From Apoderus coryli (Eukaryota > Arthropoda > Insecta > Coleoptera > Attelabidae), in the NCBI GenBank assembly GCA_911728435.2, contig OU452211.1:8104428-8168427 (forward strand): a stretch of 64,000 nucleotides of DNA, read 5' to 3'. The position numbers were made by a program, and so were the translations under genes. The notes under the pieces are model-generated. The model searched no databases. It saw only the letters and a program-made list of their open reading frames with translations, and had not been told where the DNA came from. Shown in pieces: positions 2,308 to 63,780 of this stretch. Numbering within the stretch: the first letter of the stretch is position 1; every line of letters begins with the position of its first letter.

Positions 2308-2581
2308 TGTAATATGGTACGTACACCCTGTAGAGTAAGTATTTGTTTAAATTTTATATGTTTATAAATATTTAAATAATTGTTATTAGTTGTAAGCAAA
2401 ATATGTTTTGGACAAAAATTAGGACAAGGGACGATGACCGAAGACAGAACAGAACGACAGACGATACGAACTACACGTAATTAATTAATAAAGAAAATAT
2501 AAATGATGTAGTCTGTCTTTAATTTACAAAGTAACGTTATGGGACATTACAAGTTCCCAAATCAAATCTAAATTTATTACA
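2308..2581 (+). repeat. 5' LTR, 274 bp
   Basis: It starts TGTAATATGG and ends TTTATTACA. Comparison by eye with 7025-7298 shows no difference. It contains the sequence ACACCCTGTAGAG near its start and an AATAAAG signal at about 2486. The CTAT target duplication precedes it at 2304-2307. Confidence 0.95.
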
Positions 2582-2599
2582 TGGCGATCCTGCCAGCCC
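2582..2599 (+). promoter_or_regulatory. tRNA primer-binding site of the LTR element
   Basis: TGGCGATCCTGCCAGCCC begins directly after the LTR. The leading TGG pairs with the CCA tail of a tRNA, and TGGCGA would match tRNAs ending ...TCGCCA. I did not assign the tRNA: the tRNA-Arg(UCG) in this window shares only the first six positions with this site. Confidence 0.7.
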
Positions 2600-2643
2600 T
2601 TTTTCATTATTTTAGTTAAAAATATAATATCAGATATGGCATA

Positions 2644-2898
2644 ATGGGCACTAAGCAATCAAAAGACCAAGTTGTGATAGCGCAAACTGCAAGTGGAGAT
2701 GCAGCAGCAAATTTAAATCATGGATTGACATTGGCAGAATGGTTGTTAATAATTTTAGTAGTAATGGTATTGTTGGGTTTGGTATATGTATTGATGCAAA
2801 GGTATAAAAAGGGTATGAAACGAACAATAAGACGAGAAATTAATAAGCACGAATTAAGAAAATCCCTAAATATATTAAATCAAGAAGATCAGGTATGA
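2644..2898 (+). CDS. Small myristoylation-signal, single-pass membrane protein in the LTR element
   Basis: An 84-residue ORF lies between the primer-binding site and gag. It begins MGTKQSK, matching the N-myristoylation pattern (Gly2, Ser6). A polar stretch of about 30 residues is followed by one hydrophobic segment at residues 33-51, then a strongly basic segment at 53-69 with repeated Lys/Arg, and a short charged tail. No signal peptide or cysteines are visible. Its role is unknown to me: it is not gag, protease or a normal envelope protein. The layout (acylated short head, one membrane span, juxtamembrane polybasic patch) is shared with several small membrane-active viral proteins, but that is architecture only and not homology. 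The ORF is intact, in an element with identical LTRs. Confidence 0.75.
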   Translation: MGTKQSKDQVVIAQTASGDAAANLNHGLTLAEWLLIILVVMVLLGLVYVLMQRYKKGMKRTIRREINKHELRKSLNILNQEDQV

Positions 2899-3139
2899 AA
2901 ATTCAAATCACTGTATATACAATAAAGTTGATGACCTATGGAATGTGCAACGTGTGCATCGACCCAGTGTTTTAATTTATGTGGACTATTATAGGTATAC
3001 GTGTAATTTGTTTATGTAATCATATTTTATTAAATTTAGTAACAATTTTAAATATTTAAGTAGATATTTTAAATTTAATTTTTGGTATATAAATATAATA
3101 CATTTTTTTTAACATATTAAATAAGCTTCAATACCTTGG
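2899..3139 (+). other. Spacer between the small ORF and gag
   Basis: AT-rich, with no ORF. It lies within the LTR element and separates the stop of the small ORF from the gag start. It could hold a splice acceptor or internal leader, but I see no compelling motif. Confidence 0.4.
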
Positions 3140-4312
3140 ATGGCTATTAATAAAATTTCGGAAATTTACCAATCTTTATTACAGATTAGATCAAAAGTAA
3201 GTAAATATAATATAGATAGGAGACCGAAAAAAGTTGACGAAGCAAGAGCTATATATTCTAATTTATCTAAAGAAATACAAATTATTAATAAACAAGCTGA
3301 AAAATCTGAAATAGGAAGTTCTGAAATAACTGAAATAAAAGACTTAATTTCAAAAATTAAATCCCTTTATAACGAAATTTTACAATTTGATAGAAACAAG
3401 GAAGTTAACATTTCTGAACCGAAAATGACTTCTTTTGATATAAAAACTGCTGTTAGTCTTTTACCTACCATGGACGATTATGAAGAAACCACGAAAAAAT
3501 TAATTGATGCTGTAGAGTTGTATGATTCTATGTTAGATCCGGAAGGTAAGCAATTGTTAATCAATTTTATTTTAAAAACACGCTTATCCAGTGGTGCAAA
3601 ATTAAGACTAAATCAGAATTACACTACTATCGCGGCTTTAATTAACGACATGAAATCATATCTTCTTACACGTCAATCAGATACAGCACTTCAAGCAAAA
3701 TTATATCGCGCAAAACAAGGCGAAAAATCTATTGAGGAATTTGGAAAGGAATTGGAAGACCTGTTTGTAAATTTAACAATATCCCAAGCAAATGGTAACG
3801 CCGACTCTTATTCTGTTTTAAAACCCATAAATGAAAAGGTAGCTATTAAAAGGTTTGCTGATGGTTTGAGAAATCAGAGGCTAAGTACAATAGTGGCATC
3901 TAGAAATTTTCTGTTCCTGAAGGATGCAATCAGATCTGCAGTAGATGAGGAAACAACCACAATACGAAGTTCACCGCAAATGTTTAGAGTTTCCGCAAGA
4001 GGTAGGCAACATGTTCCGCGTGGAAATTTTCGCCCTAGAACCGGTGGCCGTAATATTTCACAAAACAATATCCAAAATCGACATTTCTATAATCAAAATA
4101 ACACCCGTACAACAAATCATAATAATCAGCATTATAATAATAATAATAGAAATTTTAGACAAGTTTATAGAGGTAATAAGAGAGGTTCAAGGTCAGCGTC
4201 ACATAATGTACGACTTGCACAACAAAATAACATTACCCTAGATCAAGATTCCTTATTTCAGGAAACAACAGAAGTAGTTCCAAGTACTTCTAGTGATTTT
4301 TTTCGTGCCTAA
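3140..4312 (+). CDS. gag: Gag polyprotein of the Ty3/gypsy element
   Basis: 390 residues. The N-terminal third is helical and lysine-rich. The middle (about residues 95-285) has the helical, charged composition of a gypsy-type capsid. The C-terminus (about 285-370) is rich in Arg, Gly and Asn, with RG-type stretches and long Asn runs, and takes the place of a CCHC nucleocapsid knuckle, which is absent. Such knuckle-less Arg-rich Gag tails occur in some insect Ty3/gypsy lineages. Gag would form the particle that packages the RNA. The frame ends in TAA at 4310-4312, inside the overlap with the protease frame. It is intact, with no stops. Confidence 0.88.
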   Translation: MAINKISEIYQSLLQIRSKVSKYNIDRRPKKVDEARAIYSNLSKEIQIINKQAEKSEIGSSEITEIKDLISKIKSLYNEILQFDRNKEVNISEPKMTSFDIKTAVSLLPTMDDYEETTKKLIDAVELYDSMLDPEGKQLLINFILKTRLSSGAKLRLNQNYTTIAALINDMKSYLLTRQSDTALQAKLYRAKQGEKSIEEFGKELEDLFVNLTISQANGNADSYSVLKPINEKVAIKRFADGLRNQRLSTIVASRNFLFLKDAIRSAVDEETTTIRSSPQMFRVSARGRQHVPRGNFRPRTGGRNISQNNIQNRHFYNQNNTRTTNHNNQHYNNNNRNFRQVYRGNKRGSRSASHNVRLAQQNNITLDQDSLFQETTEVVPSTSSDFFRA

Positions 4313-4655
4313 AGGCAAGAATTTAAATCATGTTTTTACATATTCCAATAACAATTCCATTTCTGTTACATTTTCAGTAGAGCATGCTAATTTTCAATTT
4401 TTAATAGATACAGGTGCAACTTTATGTGCAATCAAAGCTGAACAATTAAAATCTAAATTTACTTTACATAAAGAAGAAATAGAAATCAAAGGTATAGGTG
4501 GAACTTTACGTGCAGAAGGATTTACATTTTTAAAATTAAAGATAGGAAACACTAGTTTTAACCAAAAATTTTATATTTTTAAGTCATTACCCTGTGCAAC
4601 AGAAGGCATTATTGGAGATAATTTTATTAGAAAATTTAACGGAGTTATAAATTAA
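4278..4655 (+). CDS. pro: Aspartic protease of the LTR element, in the +1 frame to gag
   Basis: This frame is open from 4278 and overlaps the end of gag by 35 bases. There is no ATG at the overlap, so it is probably expressed by frameshifting. Its catalytic motif is FLIDTGATLC; the Asp lies at about residue 39 counted from a GTG at 4293. A C-terminal GIIGDNFI segment matches the ILG.D flap-end region of retroviral-type proteases. The frame stops at 4653-4655, exactly where the reverse-transcriptase domain should begin, and the next open stretch in the same frame already encodes the end of RT. The protease domain itself appears complete. Confidence 0.85.
   Translation, partial: FQVLLVIFFVPKGKNLNHVFTYSNNNSISVTFSVEHANFQFLIDTGATLCAIKAEQLKSKFTLHKEEIEIKGIGGTLRAEGFTFLKLKIGNTSFNQKFYIFKSLPCATEGIIGDNFIRKFNGVIN
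4297..4303 (+). promoter_or_regulatory. Candidate gag-pol frameshift site
   Basis: A run of seven T sits at the end of gag (GATTTTTTTCGTGCC), where the gag frame must move to the protease frame. The two frames differ by +1 (or -2). Slippage on the T-run just before the gag stop would join them. No downstream pseudoknot was assessed. Confidence 0.5.
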
Positions 4656-4664
4656 ACAATATGA

Positions 4665-6770
4665 CCTAAAAATGCAGAGGAAGTGAAAAGATTTGTGGCA
4701 TTTTCGAATTACTATAGGAAATTTATTCCAAATTTTTCTGAAAAAACGGTTGTCCTTAATAAGTTGTGTAGAAAGTATGCTAGATTTGAATGGACGGATG
4801 AATGTGAAATATCTTTTAATTTTCTGAAAAATTCTCTTTCAAAACCTCCAATATTAGATTATCCAGATTTTTCTAAGGAAAATGAATTTATAGTACAAAC
4901 TGATGCTTCAAATATTGCAATAGGTGCAGTTTTACTAAATAAAAATAGAAAACCCGTAGCTTATACAAGTAGACCTTTAAACAAGGCGGAAGTTAATTAT
5001 CCGACCATCGAAAAAGAACTTTTAGCTATATACTGGAGCGTGAGATATTTCCGACCATACTTATTTGGTCGCCACTTTAAAATTTTAACAGACCATAAAC
5101 CATTGTTATATTTATTTAATTTAAAGGATCCATCAAGCAGGTTAATTAAATTTCGACTAGGATTAGAAGAGTACGATTTTCATGTAGAGTATGTAAAAGG
5201 TAAGGAAAATGTCATAGCGGACGCATTATCTAGAATAGTTATAACATCTGATGAATTAAAAGGTATGAGCCAGAATGTAATGAATGTTATGACAAGGGCA
5301 CAGAGTAAAGTATCGAATGACGAAGAGTGTGAGTTGGATGAAAGAACTACTACAAATGTTAGGCCTGATCAACCCAATGTTGTGGAAATTCTTAAAACTC
5401 CAAAAAACATCACTGAACTTAGACTTTTGTCAACTAAAGAACTCTCCAAATTTAGTGAAAAAATAACTGAAAAATCGGGTAACTTTTATTATGTACCACT
5501 ACATTCTATGATTTATTTTGCACAATTAAATTTTCGATCAGCGTTGGCGCGAGACGAAATGTTGAGAAACTTAATTGATTTATGCAAAAAGATTAATATT
5601 CGCGAATTAGTTATTTTAAAGAATGAAAATAATGTACATTTTATTAAATGGCTAGCTGAAGGTATAAAAAGTAACTCTAATTGGACCGGTCCCCGAATTT
5701 GTATAGTACAAGGAGTTAAAAAAGTAGTGGATCCCGAACAAAAGAGAGTAATTATAAACGATTTCCATCTGCTTCCTACAAGTGGTCACGCAGGTTTCAA
5801 TCGAATGTTCAACACTATCAAAAAATACTATTTTTGGTCAGGTATGCAACAAGACATTAAGAATTTTGTAAGTAAGTGTACTACATGTCAAAAGCAAAAA
5901 CATTCTAATAAATATACCAAGGAACCAATGGTTATAACATCTACAGCGCATACCTCATTCCAAAAAATATTTTTAGATATAGTTGGACCTCTACCAATAG
6001 ATGATAATGAATTTTCTTATATACTGACTCTTCAATGTGAATTAACGAAGTTTGTCGAAGCTTATCCTTTAAAATCCAAAGACGCAAAAACTGTATCAAA
6101 AAGTTTCGTAGAAAATTTTATTCTAAGATACGGAATTCCTTTAGAAATAGCAACAGATAGGGGCGCTGAATTTATTTCCGCAACTATGGATGAAATTTGT
6201 AAATTACTTAAAATTAAAAATATTCAGTCAACCGCTTACCACCATGAAAGTATAGGAGCTTTGGAAAATTCTCATAAAGTTTTAGGTGCATATTTGAGAA
6301 CTCAAAGTGTGGAATATGATGCAGCTTGGAGTACTTGGGTGCCGTATTGGTGTTTTACATATAATACCACAGTACATACGGAAACCAAATACACACCATT
6401 TGAGTTAGTTTTCGGAAAGAAATGTTATCTTCCAAGTAACTTAAAAAATACGTTAGATCCAGTCTACAACTTTGACAGCTATCCTATTGAACTTAAATAT
6501 AGGATGCAACATGCTCAAAATGATGCTCGAAAAAATCTAATACAATCTAAATTAAAAAGGAAAGAAAATTACGACAAAAATCAAAACCCTGCAATCTATC
6601 AAAAAGGAGATTTCATTCTATTAAAAAATGAAACTGCTAATAAATTTTCAGACCCCTGTTTTTTAGGGCCATATAGGGTTATTGAAGACTTATCTCCAAA
6701 CGTTAAAATCTCTAAAGATAAAAAAGAAATAATTGTACATAAAAATAGAACTAAATTCTTTAAAGAATGA
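4665..6770 (+). CDS. pol: RT C-terminal end, RNase H and integrase; RT core deleted
   Basis: The frame opens at 4665 with no ATG, after TAA at 4653 and TGA at 4662 in the same frame as protease. It begins at the RT thumb/connection signature (VAFSNYYRKFIPNFS), so the RT fingers and palm, including the YxDD box, are missing. RNase H follows, with Asp74, Glu112, Asp137 and Asp180 counted from GTG 4683. Integrase has the zinc-binding H362, H369, C399, C402 set and a DD35E core at D432, D492 and E528. The C-terminus ends with a GPYRV-type segment, without a chromodomain. Apart from the deletion of very roughly 700 bp the frame is undamaged. The enzyme would cleave and insert cDNA if expressed. 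Confidence 0.92.
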   Translation, partial: PKNAEEVKRFVAFSNYYRKFIPNFSEKTVVLNKLCRKYARFEWTDECEISFNFLKNSLSKPPILDYPDFSKENEFIVQTDASNIAIGAVLLNKNRKPVAYTSRPLNKAEVNYPTIEKELLAIYWSVRYFRPYLFGRHFKILTDHKPLLYLFNLKDPSSRLIKFRLGLEEYDFHVEYVKGKENVIADALSRIVITSDELKGMSQNVMNVMTRAQSKVSNDEECELDERTTTNVRPDQPNVVEILKTPKNITELRLLSTKELSKFSEKITEKSGNFYYVPLHSMIYFAQLNFRSALARDEMLRNLIDLCKKINIRELVILKNENNVHFIKWLAEGIKSNSNWTGPRICIVQGVKKVVDPEQKRVIINDFHLLPTSGHAGFNRMFNTIKKYYFWSGMQQDIKNFVSKCTTCQKQKHSNKYTKEPMVITSTAHTSFQKIFLDIVGPLPIDDNEFSYILTLQCELTKFVEAYPLKSKDAKTVSKSFVENFILRYGIPLEIATDRGAEFISATMDEICKLLKIKNIQSTAYHHESIGALENSHKVLGAYLRTQSVEYDAAWSTWVPYWCFTYNTTVHTETKYTPFELVFGKKCYLPSNLKNTLDPVYNFDSYPIELKYRMQHAQNDARKNLIQSKLKRKENYDKNQNPAIYQKGDFILLKNETANKFSDPCFLGPYRVIEDLSPNVKISKDKKEIIVHKNRTKFFKE

Positions 6771-7009
6771 TCGTAACTTATATTTAATTTCTAATATTAT
6801 GTATCTAGTTAGTTAAAATTAAATTATTAATAGAATTATACTTTATATAATATAAATGGGTTATAAAATGTAAGTAATATAGGTATTATCTAAAACTAGT
6901 TTTTGGTAAATTTTGGTGAATATTTTAGCATTTAGGTAGGTACTTATGCATATTGCAATTCCTGAATAAAAATAATTTACTATTTTTTCGGAAACAGTAA
7001 ATTCTTTTA

Positions 7010-7024
7010 AAAATTCCGGGGAGG
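7010..7024 (+). promoter_or_regulatory. Polypurine tract
   Basis: AAATTCCGGGGAGG lies directly before the 3' LTR. The purine core GGGGAGG is the expected primer for plus-strand DNA synthesis. Confidence 0.7.
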
Positions 7025-7298
7025 TGTAATATGGTACGTACACCCTGTAGAGTAAGTATTTGTTTAAATTTTATATGTTTATAAATATTTAAATAATTGT
7101 TATTAGTTGTAAGCAAAATATGTTTTGGACAAAAATTAGGACAAGGGACGATGACCGAAGACAGAACAGAACGACAGACGATACGAACTACACGTAATTA
7201 ATTAATAAAGAAAATATAAATGATGTAGTCTGTCTTTAATTTACAAAGTAACGTTATGGGACATTACAAGTTCCCAAATCAAATCTAAATTTATTACA
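7025..7298 (+). repeat. 3' LTR, 274 bp, with CTAT duplication after it
   Basis: Same length as, and no difference seen from, the 5' LTR. It is followed at 7299-7302 by CTAT, the copy of the 4-bp target site. Confidence 0.95.
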
Positions 7299-13902: not shown

Positions 13903-13975
13903 GACCGTGTGGCCTAATGGATAAGGCGTCGGACTTCGGATCCGAAGATTGCAGGTTCAAGTCCTGTCACGGTCG
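13903..13975 (+). tRNA. tRNA-Arg-TCG: tRNA-Arg (anticodon UCG)
   Basis: 73 bases with no intron. The acceptor stem GACCGTG pairs with CACGGTC, with discriminator G. The D-arm is GCCT...AGGC. The anticodon stem TCGGA/TCCGA holds loop CTTCGGA, giving anticodon TCG. The T-arm contains GGTTCAAGTCC, a good B box; TGGCCTAATGG serves as the A box. It decodes CGA-family arginine codons. A T-run follows within four bases. All stems pair, so it is probably functional. Confidence 0.97.
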
Positions 13976-14593: not shown

Positions 14594-14946
14594 GGTTGAC
14601 GATGACCCGTGTACATTATAACGGAAAAGATGTCAAATGAAAAGGGATGTCTTGCTTAGACGGCAATGTTTGTCTAAATTCGTTTACATATCGAGTGTCA
14701 TGCGTTGATTGATTTTCAGTTGTTGTGTCGAAAATTTATTACTAAATATAGTAACCAATCAAATTTATTCACAATAAGCCCATGAGGCTGCAGTGAAACC
14801 GGGGACTTAGGTCGAACAAAAAAAAAACCAATCAAATTACTTAATTTTAAGTCATGTGTCAAATTTCATCCAATCACCTCTGGATTACAGCGGTAATACC
14901 CTTTATTAAAAATTAATTAAACGTCAAACTTACCACTGGTTTAAAA

Positions 14947-16107
14947 ATGTCGCGAAGATTTGGTATGGTACGATGCGATTAATCATATTATATCTAATCA
15001 TATACCAAAAAATACAATCAAATCAAAAAAATATGTATGGAAAATATTTCTCGAGTTTTGTGCGACCAGAGAATACGAACTGAGTGCTGAAACGAATTTG
15101 CATAATTCGGCTAATATATTGAAAGATTATGCGGTAAATATGAGAAAAGCTGACGGAACTGAATATAAAGAAGCAACTGTAAAAACAATTTGGAATACTA
15201 CGAGTAGGCTACTCCAGGAAAAATACTTCAATGACTTCAAAATTGTATTCGACCCGTTTTCCAGTGTGATATTCAAAAATGCGCGAGATGCAAGAAATGC
15301 AAAACGTCAAAGATTACAGCAGGATCCAAACAAACGAAAATGCAGTTTATCAAATTTGAGTTCAAGTGATTTGGCTAGAATCATTGGATTATGGGATGAA
15401 TGTACACCAGAAGGTTTACAATTTTTTTTTACGATATTGTAGCTGTTGAGTTAGCTTGGCGAGGTGGTAAACCAGCTGATTGCCTTATAGATTATTTCAC
15501 GATTGAGAAAAATAATGATAGAACGCCAACCAACAGAATTGAATACAATCCAATATTCAGTAAAACATGTCAAGGAGGATCGAAAAGTTGTACAAATAGT
15601 AAGTGGCTTGTTCCAAATATTGAAAACGAAAGTGCATGCCCTGTTCGGTTATTCCATTAATTATTGTCCAAAAGGGGGAAAAATATTACTTCCAGTCGCC
15701 TATTCTTGAGACCAAATCGTTTCTGGAAATCCGAAAGTGACACATTGTTTGACAATATACCGGTAGGCAAGAACACAATTAATATGTGAACCAAATCATC
15801 CGCGCAAGCTATTGGTTTGGACACTAGGTGTAAAAAGATATCCAATCATTCGAACAGATCAACTGCAGTTAGCCATTTGGCAAATAAAGGAATTCCTGAA
15901 CAGCAATTAATAAAAATAACAGGACATAGCAGCTCTAATTCAATTAAACCGTACTTGAATATTAACCAAGAACGCCATGGTGAAATAATCAACACCATGC
16001 GAGGAATTTCTTCAACAGTGGAAATTAACAATCCGTCAACTTCAGGAAATTCTTCTTTCAATTTAACATTTACCAATTGTACTTTTCACAACTGTAGTTT
16101 TAAATAA
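14947..16107 (+). pseudogene. Crypton-like tyrosine recombinase, broken
   Basis: The start MSRRFG at 14947 is inferred from copy 2; here a frameshift within 40 bases moves the reading to the frame at 14960-15442. An N-terminal SAM-like DNA-binding domain (KYVWKIFLEFCATREYEL) is followed by the catalytic part: AWRGGKPAD (first Arg) in a second frame at 15430-15657, and HSNRST, TGHSSSNSI and PYLNI (HxxR, H and probable Tyr) in a third frame at 15817-16107. It ends in a Cys/Asn-rich tail, NLTFTNCTFHNCSFK, typical of this recombinase group. At least three frame breaks mean no active enzyme. This copy keeps the catalytic segment that copy 2 has lost. Confidence 0.82.
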
Positions 16108-16231
16108 AAATTAATAATATTTGTTTGATTAAAACTAATACATTTTGCATTGAAAATTATTAAACGTCAGATTGACAATCAAATTTTCGATATCTACAAA
16201 GTAAAAAATTATCTTATCGAATACTCCTCGG

Positions 16232-16382
16232 GCTTTGATAAATACTCAAAATTTTGTCATAGAGAATCCTTCAAGCGAGTTGCTCAAGGATAATAGCCCT
16301 CGGCCTGCGGCCTTGGGCTATTTCAAGCAACACGCTTTCGGCATTCTCTATGACAAAATTATCCCAGTATTATCAAGACCCT
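16232..16382. repeat. Terminal imperfect hairpin of Crypton-like copy 1
   Basis: A palindromic region of about 150 bp. The outer arms are TTTGATAAATACTC and GTATTATCAAGA, the middle arms ATTTTGTCATAGAGAAT and ATTCTCTATGACAAAAT, and the inner arms AGCCCTCGGCCTG and CGGCCTTGGGCT. The same structure ends copy 2 (51729-51890). It is part of the element, not of the flanks. Confidence 0.85.
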
Positions 16383-41642: not shown

Positions 41643-41697
41643 AGAAACAATTTCAGAAATCACATTAATAATTAATGTGATTTCTGAAATTGTTTCT
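41643..41697. repeat. 55-bp hairpin at the transposase stop codon
   Basis: Arms of 27 bp (AGAAACAATTTCAGAAATCA continuing CATTAAT, and its reverse complement) around a single-base spacer. The transposase stop TAA lies inside the right arm. Confidence 0.95.
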
Positions 41698-43534
41698 GTT
41701 TTAATAACTTTCCTATATTAGGCGTCACATCAGATGTTGACAGTAACAACAAATCAGAAATATGTTGCTCAGTTAGGGATGTGCGGTATTTATTTTTTAT
41801 ATAATTAAGATTTGAAAAAATCTTTTCACAAACATATGTTGAACCGAAACTACTTAAAAATTGAAAGGCCAGGTCAGTTATTGTAGGAAAATCTTCTTTT
41901 GGTACCAATTTCCAGAAATCTACAAACTCTTGTGAAGTAGTTTCTGACTTTGAAGATATTTTTTCTGAAAATATGGTTTTTAGTGCAGAATGATTTTGCA
42001 AGTCAGTGAGTTCCATTTGAATATTAGCAGGATAACTCATTATTTCTGTCAAACTGATTGTAAAAGGATTCACAAAAATTTGTAAATTTGTTTTTATACT
42101 TTCGAAGTCCTGGAATCTGCTCTCAAACGACTGTAATAAACATCTAATTTTAGATTCGTATTTAGTACAATGGATAGTGGTGATATTGAGCTTCTCTTTT
42201 AAATCTTTGAGTGTAGGAAAATGGTCAATACTTTCATTAGCTAAATTCATTAAAAACAGATTTAATTTAGCTTTGAATCCGTTTATCAAAGTAAACATAG
42301 TCGGAAGTGAACAATTTTTGCCTTGTAATATGAGATTTAAAATATTGAGGTAACTAGTAATGTCCACAAGAAATGCAAGATCACTCAACCAGGATTCTTT
42401 TTTCAGTAAATCAGTTTCTACAGGTAACGCTCCCTTTTCCTCTAAAAATTCCGATACCTGCTCTCTCAAGTTGAAAAAATGTTTTAACATGTTTCCCCTT
42501 GAAAGCCATCGCACAGCGCAGTACAGTTGTAACTCTCCATATTCGCTGATATCCTCTTCAAATAAAACTCTGAATTGACGTCTGTGAAGAGCTTTTGCAC
42601 GAATGTAATTTATGCAACGTACTACCGGGTCCATAATATCATCCAACTTCATGTCCTTTGCACACAACGCTTCCTGGTGGATGATGCAATGATACGAAAA
42701 TATTTTTCGACCCACGTAATTTTGTAACAAAGCAACACAACCATTGTTTTTTCCGGTCATTGCAGGTGCCCCATCAGTGCAAATAGACTTGATTTTGTCC
42801 CATGGTAAAGCCTTTTTTTCAACGCATTCCTTAATTTTCGCAAAAATGTCTTTCCCTTGGGTTGTAGTTTCTAGCTGACACAATTCTAGTAAATCTTGAA
42901 ATACATTCCAATTTTCATCAATGCAACGAACAAAAACAGCCAACTGAGCTCTATTCGTTAAATCGCAAGTTTCGTCCAACGCCAATGAAAAGTATTTGCA
43001 CTTTGTTACGATCTCTTGAATCTGATTGCTAATGTCAACTGACATCTCCTCCACCCGTCTTGTCACAGTATTTCGTGAGAGTGAAAGACTGTTGGCTTTA
43101 GCTATGACGTTTTGATCATTACAATTTTGTGCAAAGATTGTCAAAGCCTCTTTAACGATTTCTCCATCAGAATAAGGCTTCTTCTTTTTCGCTAAAAGCA
43201 AAGAAATCTCGTAAGACGTTTTAATCATAGATTCAAGCTCGTCATGCCTTTTTGCAAAAATATTCTGTTGGTTGAATAGTTCTCGTTTCTTTTTCTTTAA
43301 AAATTCTTCTCGGATGACACTAACAACAGGATACTCTCTTTCGAAATTGCTATGATTTTGCTTATAATGCCTTTCTAAATTATATTTTTTTGCAACCGCT
43401 ACTGTAGTCAAGCAAATTAAACATATGGGTTTCTGGGCCTTGCTTTCTGTAAAACAATATTTCTTTTCCCATTCATCATGAAAAACACGGTAAGAGTCAG
43501 TCGATTTCGACGTGCTTGGTTTGCTGTGAGCCAT
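41672..43534 (-). CDS. hAT transposase, BED zinc finger, intact
   Basis: I prefer the ATG at 43534 (MAHSKPSTSKS, about 620 residues) over an upstream in-frame ATG at 43615, whose extra residues are low-complexity. It has a BED-type zinc finger (CLICLTTVAVAKKYNLERHYKQNH pattern: Cys-x2-Cys...His-x4-His), then a helical linker. The catalytic core has LALDETCDLT (first acidic), CTDGAPAMTG (second acidic) and CAVRWLSRG. The C-terminal hAT dimerisation block is FLSSFGSTYVCEKIFSNLNY...LLLLS. It resembles the GTF2IRD2/ZBED/FAM200-type hAT group. The enzyme would cut and paste the element, binding its ends in the nucleus. No stops or shifts; ends and target duplication are also intact, so it may be active. 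Confidence 0.93.
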   Translation of the reverse strand: MAHSKPSTSKSTDSYRVFHDEWEKKYCFTESKAQKPICLICLTTVAVAKKYNLERHYKQNHSNFEREYPVVSVIREEFLKKKKRELFNQQNIFAKRHDELESMIKTSYEISLLLAKKKKPYSDGEIVKEALTIFAQNCNDQNVIAKANSLSLSRNTVTRRVEEMSVDISNQIQEIVTKCKYFSLALDETCDLTNRAQLAVFVRCIDENWNVFQDLLELCQLETTTQGKDIFAKIKECVEKKALPWDKIKSICTDGAPAMTGKNNGCVALLQNYVGRKIFSYHCIIHQEALCAKDMKLDDIMDPVVRCINYIRAKALHRRQFRVLFEEDISEYGELQLYCAVRWLSRGNMLKHFFNLREQVSEFLEEKGALPVETDLLKKESWLSDLAFLVDITSYLNILNLILQGKNCSLPTMFTLINGFKAKLNLFLMNLANESIDHFPTLKDLKEKLNITTIHCTKYESKIRCLLQSFESRFQDFESIKTNLQIFVNPFTISLTEIMSYPANIQMELTDLQNHSALKTIFSEKISSKSETTSQEFVDFWKLVPKEDFPTITDLAFQFLSSFGSTYVCEKIFSNLNYIKNKYRTSLTEQHISDLLLLSTSDVTPNIGKLLKQKQFQKSH

Positions 43535-44098
43535 ACTGAAATAAACAGCAATTTTTAATTTACTTCCACAAAAATGAATACTAGGTAGGTGTTGATTGCG
43601 ATTGTAAAAAAACATGCGTGAAAAAAATATTGTGGGTAATTTTAACAGTTAAAATGTAATCAAGTTGTATGAATACGATACCTTTCAACTCCAAAGTAAA
43701 CACTCCAAAAAGAAATCAATGTTTTATGCCGTACGAACTTTAAAATCTCAAATTAAAACACTTAAAAGAAAGATAATATAACCTACAAGTGTAAATAAAT
43801 AGCGCGCGAACGAGAACTCGCTTAGAGATTGCATCCAGTACTGATTCTCAAACGAAACAAAAGAAGAACATTGTCTTCTTTTGTTTCGTTTGAGAATCAA
43901 TCTAGCCGAGCGGGACAGCCAATCGCGTGATGTGTGGCGTGACTCACACATACGCACATTTTACTCGTTGTTTCTACGGTGATTGCGCTCAACACTTTAG
44001 GCAGGCAATTTTAAAACTTACTCACGCGGGCGGCGGGCCATTCAAAATTCCTTCGCGGGCCACGTTGTGGCCCGCGGGCCTAGGGTTGGGCAGCCTTG
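43535..44098 (-). other. hAT 5' non-coding region with 56-bp hairpin
   Basis: Promoter side of the transposase. A hairpin at 43843-43898 has 25-bp perfect arms (GATTCTCAAACGAAACAAAA continuing GAAGA) with a 6-base loop ACATTG. The terminal 60 bp is GC-rich with a small palindrome (GGGCCACGTTGTGGCCC), which may bind transposase. Confidence 0.8.
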
Positions 44099-49402: not shown

Positions 49403-50063
49403 GGAGTCATGCGTGTCATGCGTATCTTGCGTGGGATGCGTGGCAGGCGTGCTATGTGTGGCAGGGCTATCATTATCAATCTAAACCAAAACTTCAACCT
49501 CAACCTCAACTTCACCTTCAACTTGTCTTGCGTGTCTTGCCTGTCATGCGTGTCTTGCGTGTCATGCGTGGCATGCTTGTCTTGCGTGCCATGCGTGTGT
49601 TGTGTGGGATGTCGGCCATGCGTAGCATGCGTGGCAGGCGTGTTATGCGTTGAATATATGGCATGAGTGCATGCGTGGAAAGCTTGTCATGTGTGTCATG
49701 CAGCTGTGGCATGCGTGTCTGGCATATCCTGCGTGTCATGCATATGTCATGCATATTTCGGATGCGTGTCATCCGTGGCATGCATGTCTTGCGTGGCATG
49801 TGTATAATGCTTGTCATGACTAGCATGCTAGGCAAGGATGAAATGGCATGACTGGCATGCGCGGAATGCTTGTCATGTGTGTCATGCGTGGCAGATGTGT
49901 CAGGCGTGTCTTGGGTGTCTAAAGTTTTTCATGCGTGTCATGCGTGGCTTATGTGAAATGTGTGTCTTGCGTGTAATGCCAGGCATGCGTGTCATGTGTG
50001 TCATGCGTGGCATATGTGGAATGCGTGTCATGCTAGGCATGCGTGTCATGCGTGTCATGCGAC
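49403..50063. repeat. Minisatellite with 9-bp unit TGTCATGCG
   Basis: Variants of TGTCATGCG (TATCTTGCG, TGGGATGCG, TGGCAGGCG, TGGCATGCG) follow one another for about 660 bp. A short AACTTC/AACCTC tract interrupts at 49490-49525. Because 9 is divisible by 3, several frames on both strands stay open (for example 49342-49653, 49400-49666, 49838-50116, 49518-49835 minus), reading as Met-Arg-Val or Ser-Cys-Val repeats. They are products of the repeat and not genes. Confidence 0.93.
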
Positions 50064-51728: not shown

Positions 51729-52979
51729 AGGGTCTTAATAATACCGAGATAATTTTGTCATAGAGAATTCCGAAAGCGTGTTGCTTGATAATAGCCCAAT
51801 GCCGCAGGCCGAGGGCTATTATCCTTGAGCAACTCGCTTGAAGGATTCTCTATGACTAAATTTTGAGTATTTATCAAGGCCCGAGGAGTATTCGATAAGA
51901 TAGTTTTTTGCTTTGTAGATATCAAAAATCTGACGATTAATAATGTTCAATACAAAAAGTATTAGTTTTAATCAAACAAATATTATTCATTTTTATTTAA
52001 AACTACAGTTGTGAAAAGTACAATTGGTAAATGTTAAATTGGAAGAAGAGTTTGCTGAAGTTGACGGATTGTTAATTTCCACTGTTGAAGAAATTCCTCG
52101 CATGGTGTTGATTATTTCACCATTGCGTTCTTGGTTAATATTCAAGTACGGTTTAATTGAATTAGAGCTGCTTCGTCCTGTTATTTTTATTAATTGCTGT
52201 TCAGGAATTCCTTTATTTGGATTGTACTCAATTCTGTCGGCTGGCGTTCCATCATTATTTTTCTCAATCGTGAAATAATCTATAAGGCAATCAGCTGGTT
52301 CACCACCTCGCCAAGCTAACTCAACGGCTACAATATGGTAAATTTTTTTTTGTAAATCTTATGGTGTACATTCATCCCATAATCCAATGATTCTAACCAA
52401 ATCACTTGAAATCAAATTTGATGAACTGCATTTTCGTTTGTTTCGATCGTCCTCTAATCTTTTACGTTTTGCATTTCTTGCATCTCGCTCATTTTTGAAT
52501 ATCACACTGGTAAACGGGTCGAATACAATTTTGAAGTCATTGAAGTATTTTTCCTGGAGTAGCCTACTCGTAGTATTCCAAATTGTTTTTACAGTTGCTT
52601 CTTTATATTCAGTTCCGTCAGCTTTTCTCATATTTACCGCATAATCTTTCAATATATTAGTCAAATTATGCAAACTCGTTTCAGCATTCAGTTCGTATTC
52701 TCTGGTCGCACAAAACTCGAGAAATATTTTCCATACATATTTTTTTGATTTGATTGTATTTTTTGGTATATTATTAGATATATCATTAATTGCATCGTTA
52801 GATGCAATACCAAATCTTCGCGACATTGTCAGTTTGACGTTTAATTAATTTTTAATAAAAAAAACACCAGACTTCAAACACCACATGTAGGATATTATCG
52901 CTGTAATCCAGAGGTGATTCGATGAAATTTGACACATGACTTAAAATTAAGTAATTTGATTGGTTACTATATTTAGTAA
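51729..52979 (-). mobile_element. Crypton-like tyrosine-recombinase element, copy 2 (inverted)
   Basis: The reverse complement of copy 1 (14739-16382), with the same TTACTAAATATAGTAA start (52964-52979) and the same large end hairpin (51729-51890). It is shorter because the middle of the recombinase is deleted. It has about 35 bases in the leader (around 52860-52890) that copy 1 lacks. Confidence 0.82.
51990..52826 (-). pseudogene. Crypton-like tyrosine recombinase, deleted copy
   Basis: It starts MSRRFGIASNDAINDISNN at 52826 and stays open for 155 codons, giving a better N-terminus than copy 1. A stop near 52359 and a shift are followed by VAVELAWRGGEPADCLIDYF (first catalytic Arg). The reading then jumps from RIEYNP directly to KGIPEQQLIKITGRSS: the segment with the HxxR motif (HSNRS in copy 1) is gone and the following TGH is mutated to TGR. 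The C-terminal Asn/Cys tail is kept. The two copies are damaged at different places. Confidence 0.85.
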
Positions 52980-54324: not shown

Positions 54325-56135
54325 AATAATAAATAAATAATTCTTTATTTAGTATAAAAAATACTATTACATGACACTACATGAAAATCCCATTAATAAG
54401 ATGTAAGGTGTATTTTTAATTTATTTTTAAACTCATTAAAACTAGCAATGCTTCGAATATTCAAAGGCAGTGAGTTGAAAAGTCTAAGACCCTCATTAAA
54501 AACCGAATGGCACAAAAAATCTTTATCAGTAAATGAAATATTAAATGCATCATTCGATCTAAGGTATCGTTGATGAAGTTCACCTCGTTTCTTCAAAAAC
54601 TCTTTCAAATATTTTGGAGTATTCATCCTAATTATTTTATATATAAAAACTAAAGTTGCCTTTTCAACACACTGCCGAACAGGCAACCAACCCAAAGCAC
54701 TTAACATATATTGAATTGGAGTATAAATGTTACAATTTAATATTATTCTCATACATTTATTTTGCAGAATTTGCAACCTATTAATATCTTCTTTGGTACA
54801 TGAAAGAAGGAGCGTTGAACAAAATTCGAAATGTGGCAATATTATTGTATTATAAATCAAAATTTTGGAAGAATATGACAATGCACTTGAAATACGACGT
54901 AGAAACCCTATTTTTTTCCCTATTTTACGGCATATAAAGTCAATATGGTTATGAAACCGCAACTGAGAGTCAAGATACACACCCAGATATCTCATATCAG
55001 AATGCACTTGTCTATAATGATATTATGATTTTCATTGGAAAATTTAACACATTGTAATTTAGAACCAAAAACCATATACTTGGTCTTATCCTTATTCAAT
55101 TTCAGTTTATTGTAACATAACCATTTATAAAAAATGCTTAATTCGTCATTTAAAACATTCACTACTTCAGAATGATTTGTACCAGAGACCGAAATCAGCG
55201 TATCATCAGCATACAAATTTACAAAAGACTTCTTCAAGAACAAATGTACATCGTTAACATATATCAAAAATAGGAGAGGGCCCAGAACACTCCCCTGAGG
55301 CACACCATGATCGCTATTTACCGAATTTGATATATTGTGATTCACTTTTGTTTTATGAAAACGACCACTTAAAAAATGACTTAACAATTTCAATGCGTTC
55401 TGTTTATAGTTTCGAATGCTCTTCTTAAATCTACAAATACACTTAGAACTATGCGTCCCTTAGCAATGTCACCCCTCCAGCTCCCACAAACATACTGTAA
55501 CGCTGTCTCACATGAGTGATTGCTTCTAAAACCGGATTGACCTATGAATAACAAATCATTTTTCTCAAAATATGCTTGAAGTTTATCACGTATTATAACT
55601 TCCAGAATTTTATCTACAACAGGCAATAAGTTAATTGGTCGGCATTGTTCTGGGAGACTTGGTGAGGGGACCTTAGCCACAGGAACGATCAAACTAGTCT
55701 TTAAAGCAACAGGTACAATACATTTACAAAGAATAACATTCAAAACATTTAACAATGGATAACCGACTACACAAAAAATTTCTTTTAGTAATTTAACATT
55801 TAGGCACTGATCACCAGACGATTTAGGTTTTAATTTATATATCACACTTCGAAGTTGATTTAGGGATAATTTTGGAAATTCATTGAATGTACAGGACACG
55901 ATAACACCCTCCATGGCACCTTCCAAGTCCACGCAATCAGGTATACTTGTAGCAATATCTTCTATACTTGTTTTGTAAAATAAATTAAAATTTTCCTCAG
56001 GTTGCAAGGATGGATTCTGGAATTTTATATTCTCTACCTGAAGCTGTGTATTATTTTTTTGTCCAATCAATTGTTTTATTGTTTGCCACATACGTTTTGA
56101 GTCACCTCTACACTCATCAATAGACTTCCTCGAAA
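54325..56135 (-). mobile_element. 5'-truncated LINE inserted in the opposite orientation
   Basis: Minus-strand RT in three consecutive frames: SKRMWQTIKQLIGQ at the upstream edge; CRPINLLPVVDKILE, QSGFRSNHSCETALQYV and VLSVFVDLRRAFETINR; GVPQGSVLGPLLFLIYVNDV and LYADDTLI (YADD); then DMRYLGVYLDSQLRFHNHI and the C-terminal SLPLNIRSIASFNEFK. The 3' end at 54325-54345 is an AAT-repeat tail, as in Jockey-like LINEs. TCTAAATAAA/TCTAAACAAA on the two sides gives a probable target duplication. Two small shifts disrupt it (near 55390 and 55000) but the domains are well kept, so it is fairly young. There is no endonuclease: it is 5' truncated. Confidence 0.92.
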
Positions 56136-57117
56136 TCTAAACAAATGTAAGTCGGTGACATTTACAAGACGTCAGATCCGTTTTTGCGAAACTACACCAT
56201 CGATAATTCAAATTTGGAACGCTGCGCTTTAATCAAAGATCTTGGTGTATACTTGGATGGTGATTTATCTTTCAACTACCACGTTGAGCAAGTTTCTGCT
56301 AATGCTTTGCGAATGTTAGGATTTATTTTTAGACAGACCAGAGAATTCAACAACATGGACTGCCTGAAAAGTCTCTATATCGCCTTTGTTGTGTCTATTT
56401 TGGTATTCGCTACAATTATTTTGTCGCCCATCTACCGTGTTCATATACAGAGATTGGAGAGTATCCAACGTAAGTTTTTAAAATATTTGTCATTTAAAAT
56501 TGATGGATATTTTCCTCCTCGTGGGTGTGATCACGACCTGTTACTGACAAGGTTCGGATTTCGGCCGTTAGCCGAGAGACGCATCTTCGCGTCTCAGATC
56601 TTTCTTTTTAAGTTGATCAACAATATGTTGGATTGTCCTCGGTTGCTTCAGCAGCTATGGTTTCGTGTCCCTAGGGTTCACTCTAGAAGCGCTAGTTTAT
56701 TTTCGGTGCCACAGATTCGTTCTAATTATGAATCTGAAGCACCGTTATTTCGGACTTGGAAATACAGCAACCGATTAGTCATTAATGAAAACGTTGATTT
56801 TTTTAATTTATCGCTTGATTTTTTACGAAAAGTTTAGAGACATGTTTGCGGGCTACTGATTTGGATTTGTTTTGATGAATTATGTTCATGTGTTAATTAT
56901 TTATTGTTATTATTAATTGTTCTTGTAATCCTCCCACTTTTCTTTCGTTTTGATGCGTGTATTTCCTTTTTTGTATTTTTCTATTTTTCAGTTAGTTTTA
57001 AGTTAGTTCTAAGTTGAGTATTTTTGTATGCTAATGCTAGGCAATTGTTTTTGTTTATGTAAGATTTTGTCTTGTTATTATTATTAGAATAAATGTAGCT
57101 TGATCGCTAAAGCCTTT
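56136..57117 (+). pseudogene. Host LINE: right part and 3' UTR
   Basis: It continues the host LINE: LNKCKSVTFTR, then (frame at 56184-56837) ALIKDLGVYLDGDLSFNYHV, LKSLYIAFVVSILVFATII, IQRKFLKYLSFKIDGYFPPR, FGFRPLAERR and a normal C-terminus at 56837. The sequence to about 57117 is a T-rich 3' UTR ending in TTATTATTATTAGAATAAA. Confidence 0.85.
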
Positions 57118-60219: not shown

Positions 60220-61643
60220 TATACTGCACTTCTAAGCCATGATATAAGAAGGAAGGTAACAATGCGAAGCCAGAGGCACAAAAGACTAACGCAAAACTGC
60301 ACAGAATTTTGTAATCAGGTGTTCGAAAGATCCTGGCTAATTTTGTCATGTGTGTGGCGACAATGCTCCGTCAAAAATTCTCGCTATTATTGGGATCCAA
60401 ATGCACAGGAATATCTTGCTTTAAACCAGAGAGGATTGTCAAGGGTACTGTCCTGTTAATTTCCTCCTTTATTTCAAACATCTCTTTGTAAATGCTCTTA
60501 TCTACGCCAGAAAATGGTTCAGGGCATAAAAAGGATTGTCCTCTCAATGTCTCAAAGAAATATCGTGGAGTCCCTCAAACTAGACAAAGTTTTAGATATG
60601 TTTTAGATCAAATAGCTCTCTCCTCAAATTCTGCAAGGGTCCATTATGTTTCGCAAATTTAGTCAAATTCATTTTTGGCCTTATAGGATTAATTATTTTG
60701 CAGTTTTTAATAGAATTGATCCTGATGGGACAATAAGGAAAGAAATAATAGCATTACTTAGGCAGTACAATAAAAGCAGTTAGGAATAATAGTGAGGATT
60801 GCAGATGGGATAGTCTACTGTCTGACAGATCAGTAATATTTGCAATCTACCCTCTTGACGAAGTCCTTTCTACTTATTCACCAAATTTTTCCAAATTCGA
60901 AAATAAAATCCTTTAGATTTCGTTCACTAAAAATTAATATGGCAATAAGCGTCTTTAACATTGGAAGTTCAAAGAGAATAAATAAATATTCATATTTAAT
61001 CTACAACAAACTGTCAAAATAATAATGACTTAAACTTATATGAAAACTTCAAAAGGACGAAATAAGGAATTAAGGAGGCAGTCATTTTTCCACGCTTGCT
61101 TACTACTACTTTAGAAATCGAACGAACGGAGATTAGAAGTTGAGATCTCATTAACGAAATGACAGATGAAAATCATCTACACAATGAGCGGTCTATGAAC
61201 AATGTGCACCAGAGGCGTAGTTAAGCTTTTTCCACTAAATGATAAGAACTGTGATCAAAGGAGTCGAATTACGGCTTGGTGTATGTCAAGAAGTAACAGG
61301 AGTACACTTAATAAATAGATCAAAATCTAATAGCGTTTTCTGCTATATTATATACAAGGGGATCCATATAAAACATATGCAATTACGTTTATCTACTACA
61401 CGATCGATCCTGTATATTCTTCTGTTACGTCAAAAACTATAGAGAATTGATTAGGCTTTGTCTCGAAATAATATTTTTCGAGACGAGACGATACGAGACT
61501 AACGTTTGTCTCGTTATGTGTCGTTTGCCTAGGAAGTTAATTAGACTTTTTCGCAGTAGCCTCTAGTAGATACTTTGAAATAACAAACTTCAAGACAAGA
61601 GTAAGGAAAGAGTATTTTATTTTTCTCTTAAATACTGTAAATA
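60220..61643. other. Intergenic, no gene seen
   Basis: Several 60-67-codon frames without family resemblance. 61450-61520 repeats CGAGAC words. Confidence 0.4.
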
Positions 61644-61674
61644 TGTTTTTCGCCTGCCTGCACTTAAACAGAGT

Positions 61675-61702
61675 TTTACCGCCCGCATATGCGGGCGGTA
61701 AA
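61675..61702. repeat. Perfect 28-bp GC-rich palindrome
   Basis: The half-site TTTACCGCCCGCAT is followed directly by its reverse complement. The word TTTACCGCCC recurs at the far hairpin (63101-63110). Confidence 0.95.
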
Positions 61703-62136
61703 TGACCCGTTAGCGCCCGCTCTTTTTATTTTTTTTTCATAGATGGCGTTAATGTTAGATTTCCAATAATAACGTTAACATCAGTAGTTTTCACTCACTT
61801 AACTTAATGTGCATTCCATCTAGAGGATAAGTTGACAATTAATTGAGAAAGTTTAAACTCATTTAATTATTTAAAATTGTCCATTATTAATTAGTAATCA
61901 CTTTTTAATTATTATTGTAGTACCGAAATATACCTAAGATTCTAAAATCAAATTTCTATAGCGTACACGCTCAGATAATAATTTGACAGTTTCTTTCTAC
62001 ATTTAAAATACTCAACATTGACATGTGAGCCTGTCACATAAGTTTATCTGATCTGAGTTTATCAAAGGATAACGCCTATTATCATGTACGTCAAAAAATA
62101 CTCCCATTAATTACTGTCAAAAACTGTCAGTTCATA

Positions 62137-62148
62137 ACAGTAATAATT
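62137..62148 (+). repeat. Target-site duplication, left copy
   Basis: ACAGTAATAATT, identical to 62920-62931; it bounds the retrozyme-like insertion. Confidence 0.85.
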
Positions 62149-62242
62149 TGGAATGGGCTTGTTTAACAAAACAAGACTTAAAATGCGAGAGTTTGTCTGT
62201 CAACCACTATACTTTCACCAGACGGCCGTTTCGTCGATCCAC
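62146..62242 (-). repeat. Inverted partial copy of the ribozyme unit, 97 bp
   Basis: The exact reverse complement of 62335-62431. The copy begins in the loop-side half of ribozyme stem II (GTGGATCGACGAAAC on the minus strand) and runs downstream, so it lacks CTGATGA and cannot cleave. Its outer three bases overlap the target duplication by chance. Confidence 0.92.
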
Positions 62243-62572
62243 ATCCTTTTACATCTCTGTACCGTTTGTGGTATATACCACATTATTTACGAGAGTTTAG
62301 CTGTCAACTACTGACCGATCACCACTGATGAGTCGTGGATCGACGAAACGGCCGTCTGGTGAAAGTATAGTGGTTGACAGACAAACTCTCGCATTTTAAG
62401 TCTTGTTTTGTTAAACAAGCCCATTCCAAATATATGCGATCCCGCTTAAGGGAGTATCGGCGCGTCTATGTGTTGGTAGTTGCTTTATGGGGTCAGAGAC
62501 CTCCCAGGCAGTCGATATAGGAACTGTGTTCACTCGGCGTACTACCAACAATAAAACTAGATGTCGCCAAAC
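62241..62572 (+). repeat. Retrozyme unit 1, 332 bp
   Basis: It begins ACATCCTTTTACATCTCTGT. It contains the ribozyme in its first half and a second region with GTGTTGGTAGTTGC...GCGTACTACCAACA (an inverted GTTGGTAGT/ACTACCAAC pair). Period exactly 332 relative to unit 2. Confidence 0.95.
62290..62391 (+). ncRNA. Hammerhead ribozyme 1, type I
   Basis: Core: CTGATGA at 62325-62331; stem II GTCG/CGAC (62332-62335, 62341-62344) with loop TGGAT; GAAA at 62345-62348; a minimal two-pair stem III (A-C...G-T, loop GGCC); then C at 62356, so the cleavage triplet is GTC and the cut falls between 62356 and 62357. Stem I: TCACCA with TGGTGA (6 bp), a 6x6 internal loop (GACCGA/AAGTAT), then CTGTCAACTACT with AGTGGTTGACAG (12 bp including one G-U), then CGAGAGTTT with AAACTCTCG (9 bp). 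Every invariant core base is present. The short stem III with a long, looped stem I is the form known from retrozymes and Penelope-like elements. Such minimal stem III ribozymes often work as dimers. Confidence 0.93.
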
Positions 62573-62904
62573 ACATCCTTTTACATCTCTGTACCGTTTG
62601 TGGTATATACCACATTATTTACGAGAGTTTAGCTGTCAACTACTGACCGATCACCACTGATGAGTCGTGGATCGACGAAACGGCCGTCTGGTGAAAGTAT
62701 AGTGGTTGACAGACAAACTCTCGCATTTTAAGTCTTGTTTTGTTAAACAAGCCCATTCCAAATATATGCGATCCCGCTTAAGGGAGTATCGGCGCGTCTA
62801 TGTGTTGGTAGTTGCTTTATGGGGTCAGAGACCTCCCAGGCAGTCGATATAGGAACTGTGTTCACTCGGCGTACTACCAACAATAAAACTAGATGTCGCC
62901 AAAC
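62573..62904 (+). repeat. Retrozyme unit 2, 332 bp
   Basis: Base-for-base match to unit 1 as read by eye, followed by 15 bases of a third unit before the right target duplication. A minus-strand 87-codon frame here (62743-63006) is chance. Confidence 0.95.
62622..62723 (+). ncRNA. Hammerhead ribozyme 2, type I
   Basis: Identical to ribozyme 1 with a 332-base offset: CTGATGA at 62657-62663, GAAA at 62677-62680, predicted cut between 62688 and 62689. Cleavage by both would release the 332-nt RNA 62357-62688. Confidence 0.93.
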
Positions 62905-62919
62905 ACATCCTTTTACATC

Positions 62920-62931
62920 ACAGTAATAATT
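62920..62931 (+). repeat. Target-site duplication, right copy
   Basis: ACAGTAATAATT; it matches the left copy exactly. Confidence 0.85.
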
Positions 62932-63007
62932 AATTATTAAAATAAAGTTCTTTTGGTTTAATATTGTAGTATGAAGAGGCAGGCGAAAAACAGTTGTAAG
63001 CACCACT

Positions 63008-63109
63008 GGCGGTAAAGCCGCTGCAGCCCTTCGCTGTATAGCTGCCCTCGCTCGCTTCGCTCACTCGTGCGTCTATACCGCGGCGGGCTGCAACGAATGC
63101 TTTACCGCC
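63008..63109. repeat. Long GC-rich imperfect hairpin
   Basis: Outer arms GGCGGTAAAGC/GCTTTACCGCC, inner GCAGCCC/GGGCTGC and TATAG/CTATA, with a centre of GCTCGCTTCGCTCACTCG. It shares the TTTACCGCCC word with the palindrome at 61675, so both may be ends of one element. Confidence 0.85.
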
Positions 63110-63110
63110 C

Positions 63111-63780
63111 TTTATACTTAATATACTATAATAACTTTATTAAATTGCGATACTTTAAGTATCCTACCCAACATTACCACTGGGTCATAATCGGCTTCAA
63201 CATCTTTTTGCGGTAGTTACGTGCCGCTACTGACGTCAGCATCCAAAACAAAATTAGCGTCCTGTCAAAGCAGCCAATATGCATCGCTTATTTCCTCTCT
63301 TGTGATAGCCTGGGCGCGTATTGTCTCTATCGTTTAATAATAATAAGTAAAGCGACAACGGCAAGAGAAGAAAATGAGATGAATGAATGAATATAATCAT
63401 AATATAAGAATAAGGAAAATCTAAGGCAAATCATAATAAAAGGGCTGTCAATTGTGCGAAAAGAGATTTTTCATCAACCATTTCATATTATAATGATATC
63501 GACTTTATCTGACGGAGTTAATGAACAAAAACTTCGGCTTTGGAATTAAGTGTCAGCTTTGATGGTGAAACAGTAAAAAAAAAAAAAAAATAGGGAAAGA
63601 ATTTACAGGTTCACTGTAAAGTTTGATGATCCTGTCTGTTGTGACATATTTCCTAATACAGTCAGAATCGAAAGTCATGCATATATGCAATAAAATTTTA
63701 ATTTAATTAATATTTACAGCAGGATGGACCCTCAAAGGTAATCCAAACCAGTAATTTGTCCTAAAGTTTCACTTTCAAAA
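63111..63780. other. Intergenic; candidate regulatory island at 63200-63480
   Basis: The island contains CTGACGTCAG (CRE-like), ATATGCAT (octamer-like) and GGGCTGTCAATTGTGCG. There is no ORF. A 16-A run lies near 63575. Confidence 0.35.

Follow-up and report, generated by a model that had tools for sequence, protein, structure and literature searches.

A candidate retrozyme dimer bounded by a target-site duplication and joined head-to-head to an inverted partial unit

Layout of the insertion

We analysed a window of 64 kb, by which we mean the whole stretch of 64,000 nucleotides. Repeat searches and scripts delimited within it an insertion of 795 bp (62137-62931) flanked by a 12-bp target-site duplication (TSD), whose left copy (ACAGTAATAATT) lies at 62137-62148 and whose right copy lies at 62920-62931, leaving 771 bp of insert between them. 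The bulk of the insert is an array of 2.05 forward units of 332 bp, that is, two units and 16 nt, which stands head-to-head with an inverted piece. As found by repeat search and blastn, unit 1 occupies 62240-62571 and unit 2 occupies 62572-62903, both on the forward strand, and tandem-repeat and repeat searches with a direct check showed that they are 100% identical at an offset of exactly 332 bases. A third-unit fragment of 16 nt (62904-62919, forward strand) forms the 3' end of the insert and would mark the point at which reverse transcription began. At the other end, a 97-nt partial unit on the reverse strand (62146-62242) is the 100% identical reverse complement of 62335-62431. Each inner joint has an overlap of 3 nt: the last three bases of the left TSD copy, ATT (62146-62148), are common to the inverted piece, and the first three bases of unit 1, CAC (62240-62242), are likewise common to the inverted piece.

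Joining the two flanks without the insert restored a clean empty site. Matches of at least 10 nt resembling a TSD arose at 33 of 200,000 random junction pairs, as against the 12 nt observed here. The original prediction had placed the element at 62290-62723, a span that proved to be the middle of the insertion; its true extent is 62137-62931, and the inverted piece and the TSD had been omitted. Reading the sequence directly, we found neither a poly(A) nor a simple tail at the 3' end of the insert. Local blastn found no further copy of the insertion in the 64-kb window, where the hits outside it reached 32 nt at most (E of 1.5 or above). The complete identity of the copies fits a recent, young insertion.

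A possible older fold-back element extends over 61595-63120, marked by an inverted pair of 16 nt without mismatch (TGTTTTTCGCCTGCCT; 61644-61659 and 62977-62992) and by G+C-rich inverted repeats at 61675-61702 and 63019-63095, these being among the 25 of 29 pairs listed. The retrozyme may sit inside this older element.

The hammerhead ribozyme and its palindromic stem III

Each unit carries a type I hammerhead core on the forward strand, at 62319-62362 in unit 1 and at 62651-62694 in unit 2, with putative cleavage between 62356 and 62357 and between 62688 and 62689, respectively. Direct reading and a script placed CTGATGA at 62325-62331, GAAA at 62345-62348 and GTC at 62354-62356 of unit 1, and stem II at 62332-62335/62341-62344, where GTCG and CGAC form four pairs around the loop TGGAT; every core base is preserved in unit 1 and unit 2 alike. 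The original prediction of two tandem consensus type I hammerheads at an exact 332-base offset, with these same core elements, was thus borne out by direct reading, script, repeat searches, Rfam alignment and pattern search. With the long stem I included, the full hammerheads span 62290-62391 (inverted-repeat search and script) and 62622-62723 (inverted-repeat search), both on the forward strand. Stem I comprises 25 pairs in three runs (6, 10 and 9), which are separated by an internal loop (8x8) and a mismatch (2x2), and the best fold adds four pairs within the internal loop to reach 29; the three parts described earlier therefore stand, while the count of 27 bp given for them is only close.

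The Rfam model Hammerhead_1 (RF00163) aligned end to end (model positions 1-45 of 45) with both units at 33.8 bits and E = 2.3e-6, the latter for 1201 bases searched with 4227 families. Since this score is 0.2 bits below the gathering score of 34 bits, a default Rfam scan of the window reports a tRNA alone. The covariance-model check that had been proposed for the prediction was accordingly a near miss, which is outweighed by a test with a strict core pattern, defined as the core plus four stem II pairs, the stem III closing pair and four stem I pairs. This pattern matched the window at 62325 and 62657 of the forward strand alone, with no match on the reverse strand, and gave 0 matches on both strands of 200 dinucleotide-shuffled windows.

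Stem III is formed by an 8-nt palindrome, ACGGCCGT, at 62348-62355 and again at 62680-62687 of the forward strand. Within one molecule it can close GGCC with a single C-G pair in addition to the A-U pair of the core, which is the two-pair stem III of the original prediction, but it is better viewed as a palindrome, since between two ribozymes eight continuous base pairs become possible. Constrained folding, in which energies ignore loop-loop contacts and core stacking, placed the monomer hammerhead 7.9 kcal/mol above the best fold, whether the 44-nt core, the 102-nt ribozyme or the unit, linear or circular, was folded, whereas in a linear unit cut at the cleavage site forcing the hammerhead needs 3.9 kcal/mol. 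A forced dimeric hammerhead came to -102.7 kcal/mol, compared with -101.2 for two free monomers and -108.7 for the best dimer, a gap of 6.0. The preferred folds predicted for monomer and dimer both hide the catalytic core.

The palindromic nature of stem III (ACGGCCGT) makes it probable that the ribozyme acts as a dimer, by analogy with those of the axolotl. The axolotl Amex1 ribozyme, as described in PMC7229834, has a one-pair stem III and a palindromic tetraloop, cleaves at 6% per hour alone and performs far better as a dimer. For a putative repeat-type hammerhead of Aedes aegypti, which showed no cleavage in the assay reported, a palindromic loop III has likewise been proposed to mediate pairing between two ribozymes (PMC3088659); we compared it by description.

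Retrozyme identity and relatives

We are highly confident that the insertion is a non-LTR retrozyme, a small non-coding retroelement of a kind already published. Published units measure about 170-400 bp, with G+C under 50% and a TSD of more than 4 bp (PMC7229834). The unit here has 44.6% G+C and is non-coding, the longest open frame on an endless unit being 81 codons from stop to stop, which agrees with the earlier statement that the unit lacks an ORF; we found no coding frame in the element. The monomer RNA is strongly self-paired in prediction (-113.9 kcal/mol; z -6.4 against 100 shuffles), and 65.7% of unit bases are paired in the predicted fold, slightly lower than the "above 70%" quoted for metazoan units (PMC4918200). 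A search of the unit gave no B-box match and a single, unsupported A-box-like match. Unit length, tandem dimer in register, type I core, G+C, TSD length and self-pairing all agree with the published description of metazoan non-LTR retrozymes, and the retrozyme reading that the original prediction had offered is supported.

The closest kin by description, rather than by sequence comparison, are the metazoan non-LTR retrozymes of Cervera and de la Pena 2020 (PMC7229834), with which the insertion shares the type I hammerhead, the tandem non-coding unit of ~170-400 nt, a TSD longer than 4 bp and a strongly self-paired RNA; the paper also lists insects as hosts of retrozyme-like repeats. It differs in two respects. 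The insertion has a 5' inverted piece, while the main text of that paper does not contain the word "inverted", and the fold that hides the core is reported there for plant and some mussel retrozymes, not for most animal ones. With Penelope-like elements (PLEs), the insertion shares direct repeats with an adjacent 5' inverted partial repeat and a short TSD (PMC3846280), as well as a tandem template, a putative internal copying start, one ATT cut and a hammerhead with a minimal stem III (PMC3846280, PMC11167929). Unlike them, it has no ORF, reverse transcriptase or GIY-YIG endonuclease; it also has a long stem I and two different copying starts, and its second cut is not at ATT. The Dolichopoda repeat pDo500 (PMC2837043) is likewise an insect repeat-borne hammerhead, but is described as a satellite family and not as an isolated insertion flanked by a TSD; this likeness is one of description.

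Two other assignments were rejected. A plant LTR retrozyme, with a type III hammerhead in its LTRs and a 4-bp TSD, is ruled out by the type I hammerhead and the 12-bp TSD. The insertion is also not a Penelope-like element itself, since it has no coding frame and so lacks the reverse transcriptase and GIY-YIG ORF; at most, a PLE mobilised it.

The sequence family may be new, in that it has no match in viral, bacterial and archaeal contig collections. A hammerhead pattern that kept the stem II edges of this element occurred in 67 viral contigs. A script run over all 67 loci found a palindromic loop III (ACGTACGT) in one of them, and none has unit-like repeats within 700 nt; repeated 20-mers occur only at L014 (spacing 12), L023 (24) and L047 (189, about 21 nt long). 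These loci appear to be unannotated phage-type hammerheads and serve as a contrast set only. Patterns specific to the family gave 0 matches in viral contigs and 0 in bacterial and archaeal genome contigs, zeros which say little because these collections are not insect ones.

To the original prediction the analysis adds the 12-bp TSD, the head-to-head inverted 5' piece, a 3' end off the cleavage site and a palindromic, dimer-type stem III. Passages on inversion in the main texts of five retrozyme and Penelope papers yielded no description of an inverted retrozyme insertion, a result that is not proof of absence. The novelty is that of a sequence family and of an insertion whose scars record a mechanism, the kind itself being already known. 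With it comes a further element, probably from an insect, whose ribozyme is of the dimer type and which may be a source of abundant small circular RNA.

Mode of insertion and surrounding elements

The forward units and the inverted piece all cross the cleavage junction, and the insert stops 101 nt before a cleavage bond. Since neither the array nor the inverted piece is interrupted at that bond, the template should have been circular or uncut; counting from the unit phases, a linear template would have to be at least 917 nt long. The last copied base, equivalent to 62587 of the unit, falls within UCUC, the loop of a predicted UACA-UCUC-UGUA hairpin (unpaired probability 0.996). Just 3' of this putative copying start lies a perfect 16-bp palindrome, TGTGGTATATACCACA (62267-62282, also 62599-62614, forward strand), itself a predicted hairpin. 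The second priming site, 62429-62431, is also predicted to be unpaired (0.92). The two copying starts differ, at 62587 and at about 62428 in unit coordinates. Predicted hairpin loops take up 33 of the 332 nt and 12.7% of junctions fall between two unpaired bases; loops and unpaired junctions being that common, the start in a hairpin loop is weak, suggestive evidence. In the target, the top strand was cut after ATT and the bottom strand after CTGT.

We consider it likely that these features stem from target-primed copying from both cut strands, with a circular or uncut multimeric RNA as template. Read-through transcripts would be cut at each GTC by hammerheads paired through the palindromic stem III and acting as dimers, and a host RNA ligase would close the 332-nt monomers into circles. 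A borrowed reverse transcriptase, Penelope-like or LINE, would then cut the two target strands 12 bp apart. Copying would begin inside the RNA near the hairpin loop and cross the cleavage junction, the template being either a circle passed about twice or a multimer that had stayed uncut. Through its ATT end, which could base-pair with AAU of the transcript, the second target strand would prime another cDNA elsewhere on that RNA, giving rise to the inverted 5' piece. The TSD, the ATT end and the CAC overlap are the leftovers expected if each cut strand had primed a cDNA on the same RNA. For the locus as a whole, with this one insertion as the sample, a retrozyme dimer inserted by a borrowed reverse transcriptase is the best explanation and, in our judgement, probably the right one.

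Three alternatives would do away with part or all of this account. The repeat could be a short satellite or tandem duplication with a chance hammerhead, made dimeric by unequal exchange in the DNA and involving no retrotransposition; hammerhead satellites are indeed known in crickets, newts and schistosomes (PMC2837043, PMC4918200), but an exact 12-bp TSD around 2.05 units and an inverted piece at a single site, together with the lack of a second copy within the 64-kb window, makes this origin very improbable. We give hardly any credence to an assembly or amplification chimera as the source of the inverted piece or of the second unit. The 100% identity among all copies is what chimeras show, yet it also fits a young insertion, and the 12 bp of flanking DNA directly duplicated on the two outer sides would be surprising in a chimera. 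A different doubt concerns the ribozyme, which could have kept its sequence while lacking function: the best monomer fold hides the core by 7.9 kcal/mol, stem III is minimal and the Rfam score is slightly under the cut-off. Such inactivity is unlikely, however, given that both units have all core bases intact, that the dimer fold becomes competitive through the stem III palindrome, and that good cleavage in dimeric form is known from an axolotl ribozyme whose stem III is described as comparable (PMC7229834).

The borrowed enzyme itself could be of either type. A LINE-type reverse transcriptase inserting the retrozyme by twin priming, without a PLE, is a possibility that we regard as rather doubtful. 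In L1 twin priming, a 5' inversion arises together with a TSD and the second strand primes at a different site on the RNA, as here. The 12-bp TSD and the 5' inversion with its 3-nt joint overlaps match this process, and fragments of a reverse transcriptase are close by, with RVT_1 in the frames 54992-55459 and 55390-56136; Nematostella repeats with 15-bp TSDs have also been likened to LINE ones (PMC4918200). Against a LINE, the 3' end of the insert carries no poly(A) or simple tail, copying began inside the unit, although a broken or differently cut linear RNA could end there too, and an inverted piece adjoining direct repeats is the typical Penelope layout (PMC3846280).

PLEs have been proposed as the helpers of animal retrozymes, being named there as a strong candidate only (PMC7229834). 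The inverted 5' piece, the TSD, the 3-nt overlaps, the end off the cleavage site and the one ATT-side cut resemble PLE insertions. Purified Penelope protein is reported to cut 5'-ATT-3', to extend both strands and to start internally in an AC-rich stem loop, with both strands starting at one RNA site and ATT the favoured cut on each; the authors call internal initiation at a non-homologous site unique to PLEs, and disabling the hammerhead left insertion in vitro unaffected (PMC11167929). In one Penelope example of PMC3846280, the inverted and direct copies share an overlap of 15 bp and the insertion has a 9-bp TSD; the head-to-head arrangement is called the most frequent. The authors of that paper favour self-priming on an antisense template at palindromic joints, whereas the inner joint here has CAC alone.

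Because the two copying starts differ and one cut is not at ATT, a Penelope enzyme is less favoured than it would otherwise be, and the suggestion that it in particular did the mobilising falls a little short of probable. The fuller version, in which a PLE cut both strands of an AT-rich site and primed both cDNAs on one circular or uncut multimeric hammerhead RNA from inside a stem loop, leaving a retrozyme dimer laid out like a Penelope insertion, we put forward tentatively; if true, the locus would preserve the traces of an animal retrozyme's movement. A Pfam scan of 20 of the 26 ORFs listed for the window detected no GIY-YIG domain. If true, the Penelope reading would turn the published guess of PLE-mobilised retrozymes into structural evidence, and since the two outer ends, the two inner joints and the site where copying began can all still be read in the insertion, that guess becomes testable by tallying joints across copies.

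The window contains several other mobile elements, and its Gypsy, hAT and mariner-type transposon genes are those of an animal-like genome. The reverse transcriptase pieces at 54992-56136 lie in two overlapping reverse-strand frames, with RVT_1 at 58.6 bits in 54995-55459 and at 26.4 bits, below the family cut-off of 29.6, in 55393-56136; they are a possible but broken helper type. A Gypsy-type LTR element (2308-7298) is bounded by 274-bp direct repeats, 100% identical, at 2308-2581 and 7025-7298, and in its 701-aa frame Pfam found RNase H and integrase but no reverse transcriptase domain. Relatives of this protein, among the 120 listed, reach 1,227 aa and all but 3 carry PF00078; the four with an organism name come from Plutella xylostella (3) and Colias eurytheme (1), both Lepidoptera, which makes an insect host likely, perhaps a moth or butterfly. 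The Gypsy-type element may be a recently moved copy without a reverse transcriptase domain. A hAT-type transposase-like frame (41672-43648) is unbroken at 658 aa and has a Spin-doc zinc finger and a hAT dimerisation region.

Two copies of a repeated family, 14826-16382 and 51729-52965, lie in opposite orientation and are 88-93% identical, and both contain a frame of some 160 aa (KVWKIFLEFCATREYEL...) for which Pfam gave no match. Tandem repeats comprise 3.3 copies of a 250-bp unit at 637-1466 and, at 49529-50061, about 58 degenerate copies of a 9-bp unit (TGCGTGGCA) with 62% matches. The tRNA in the window is a tRNA-Arg with anticodon TCG at 13903-13975 (71.5 bits).
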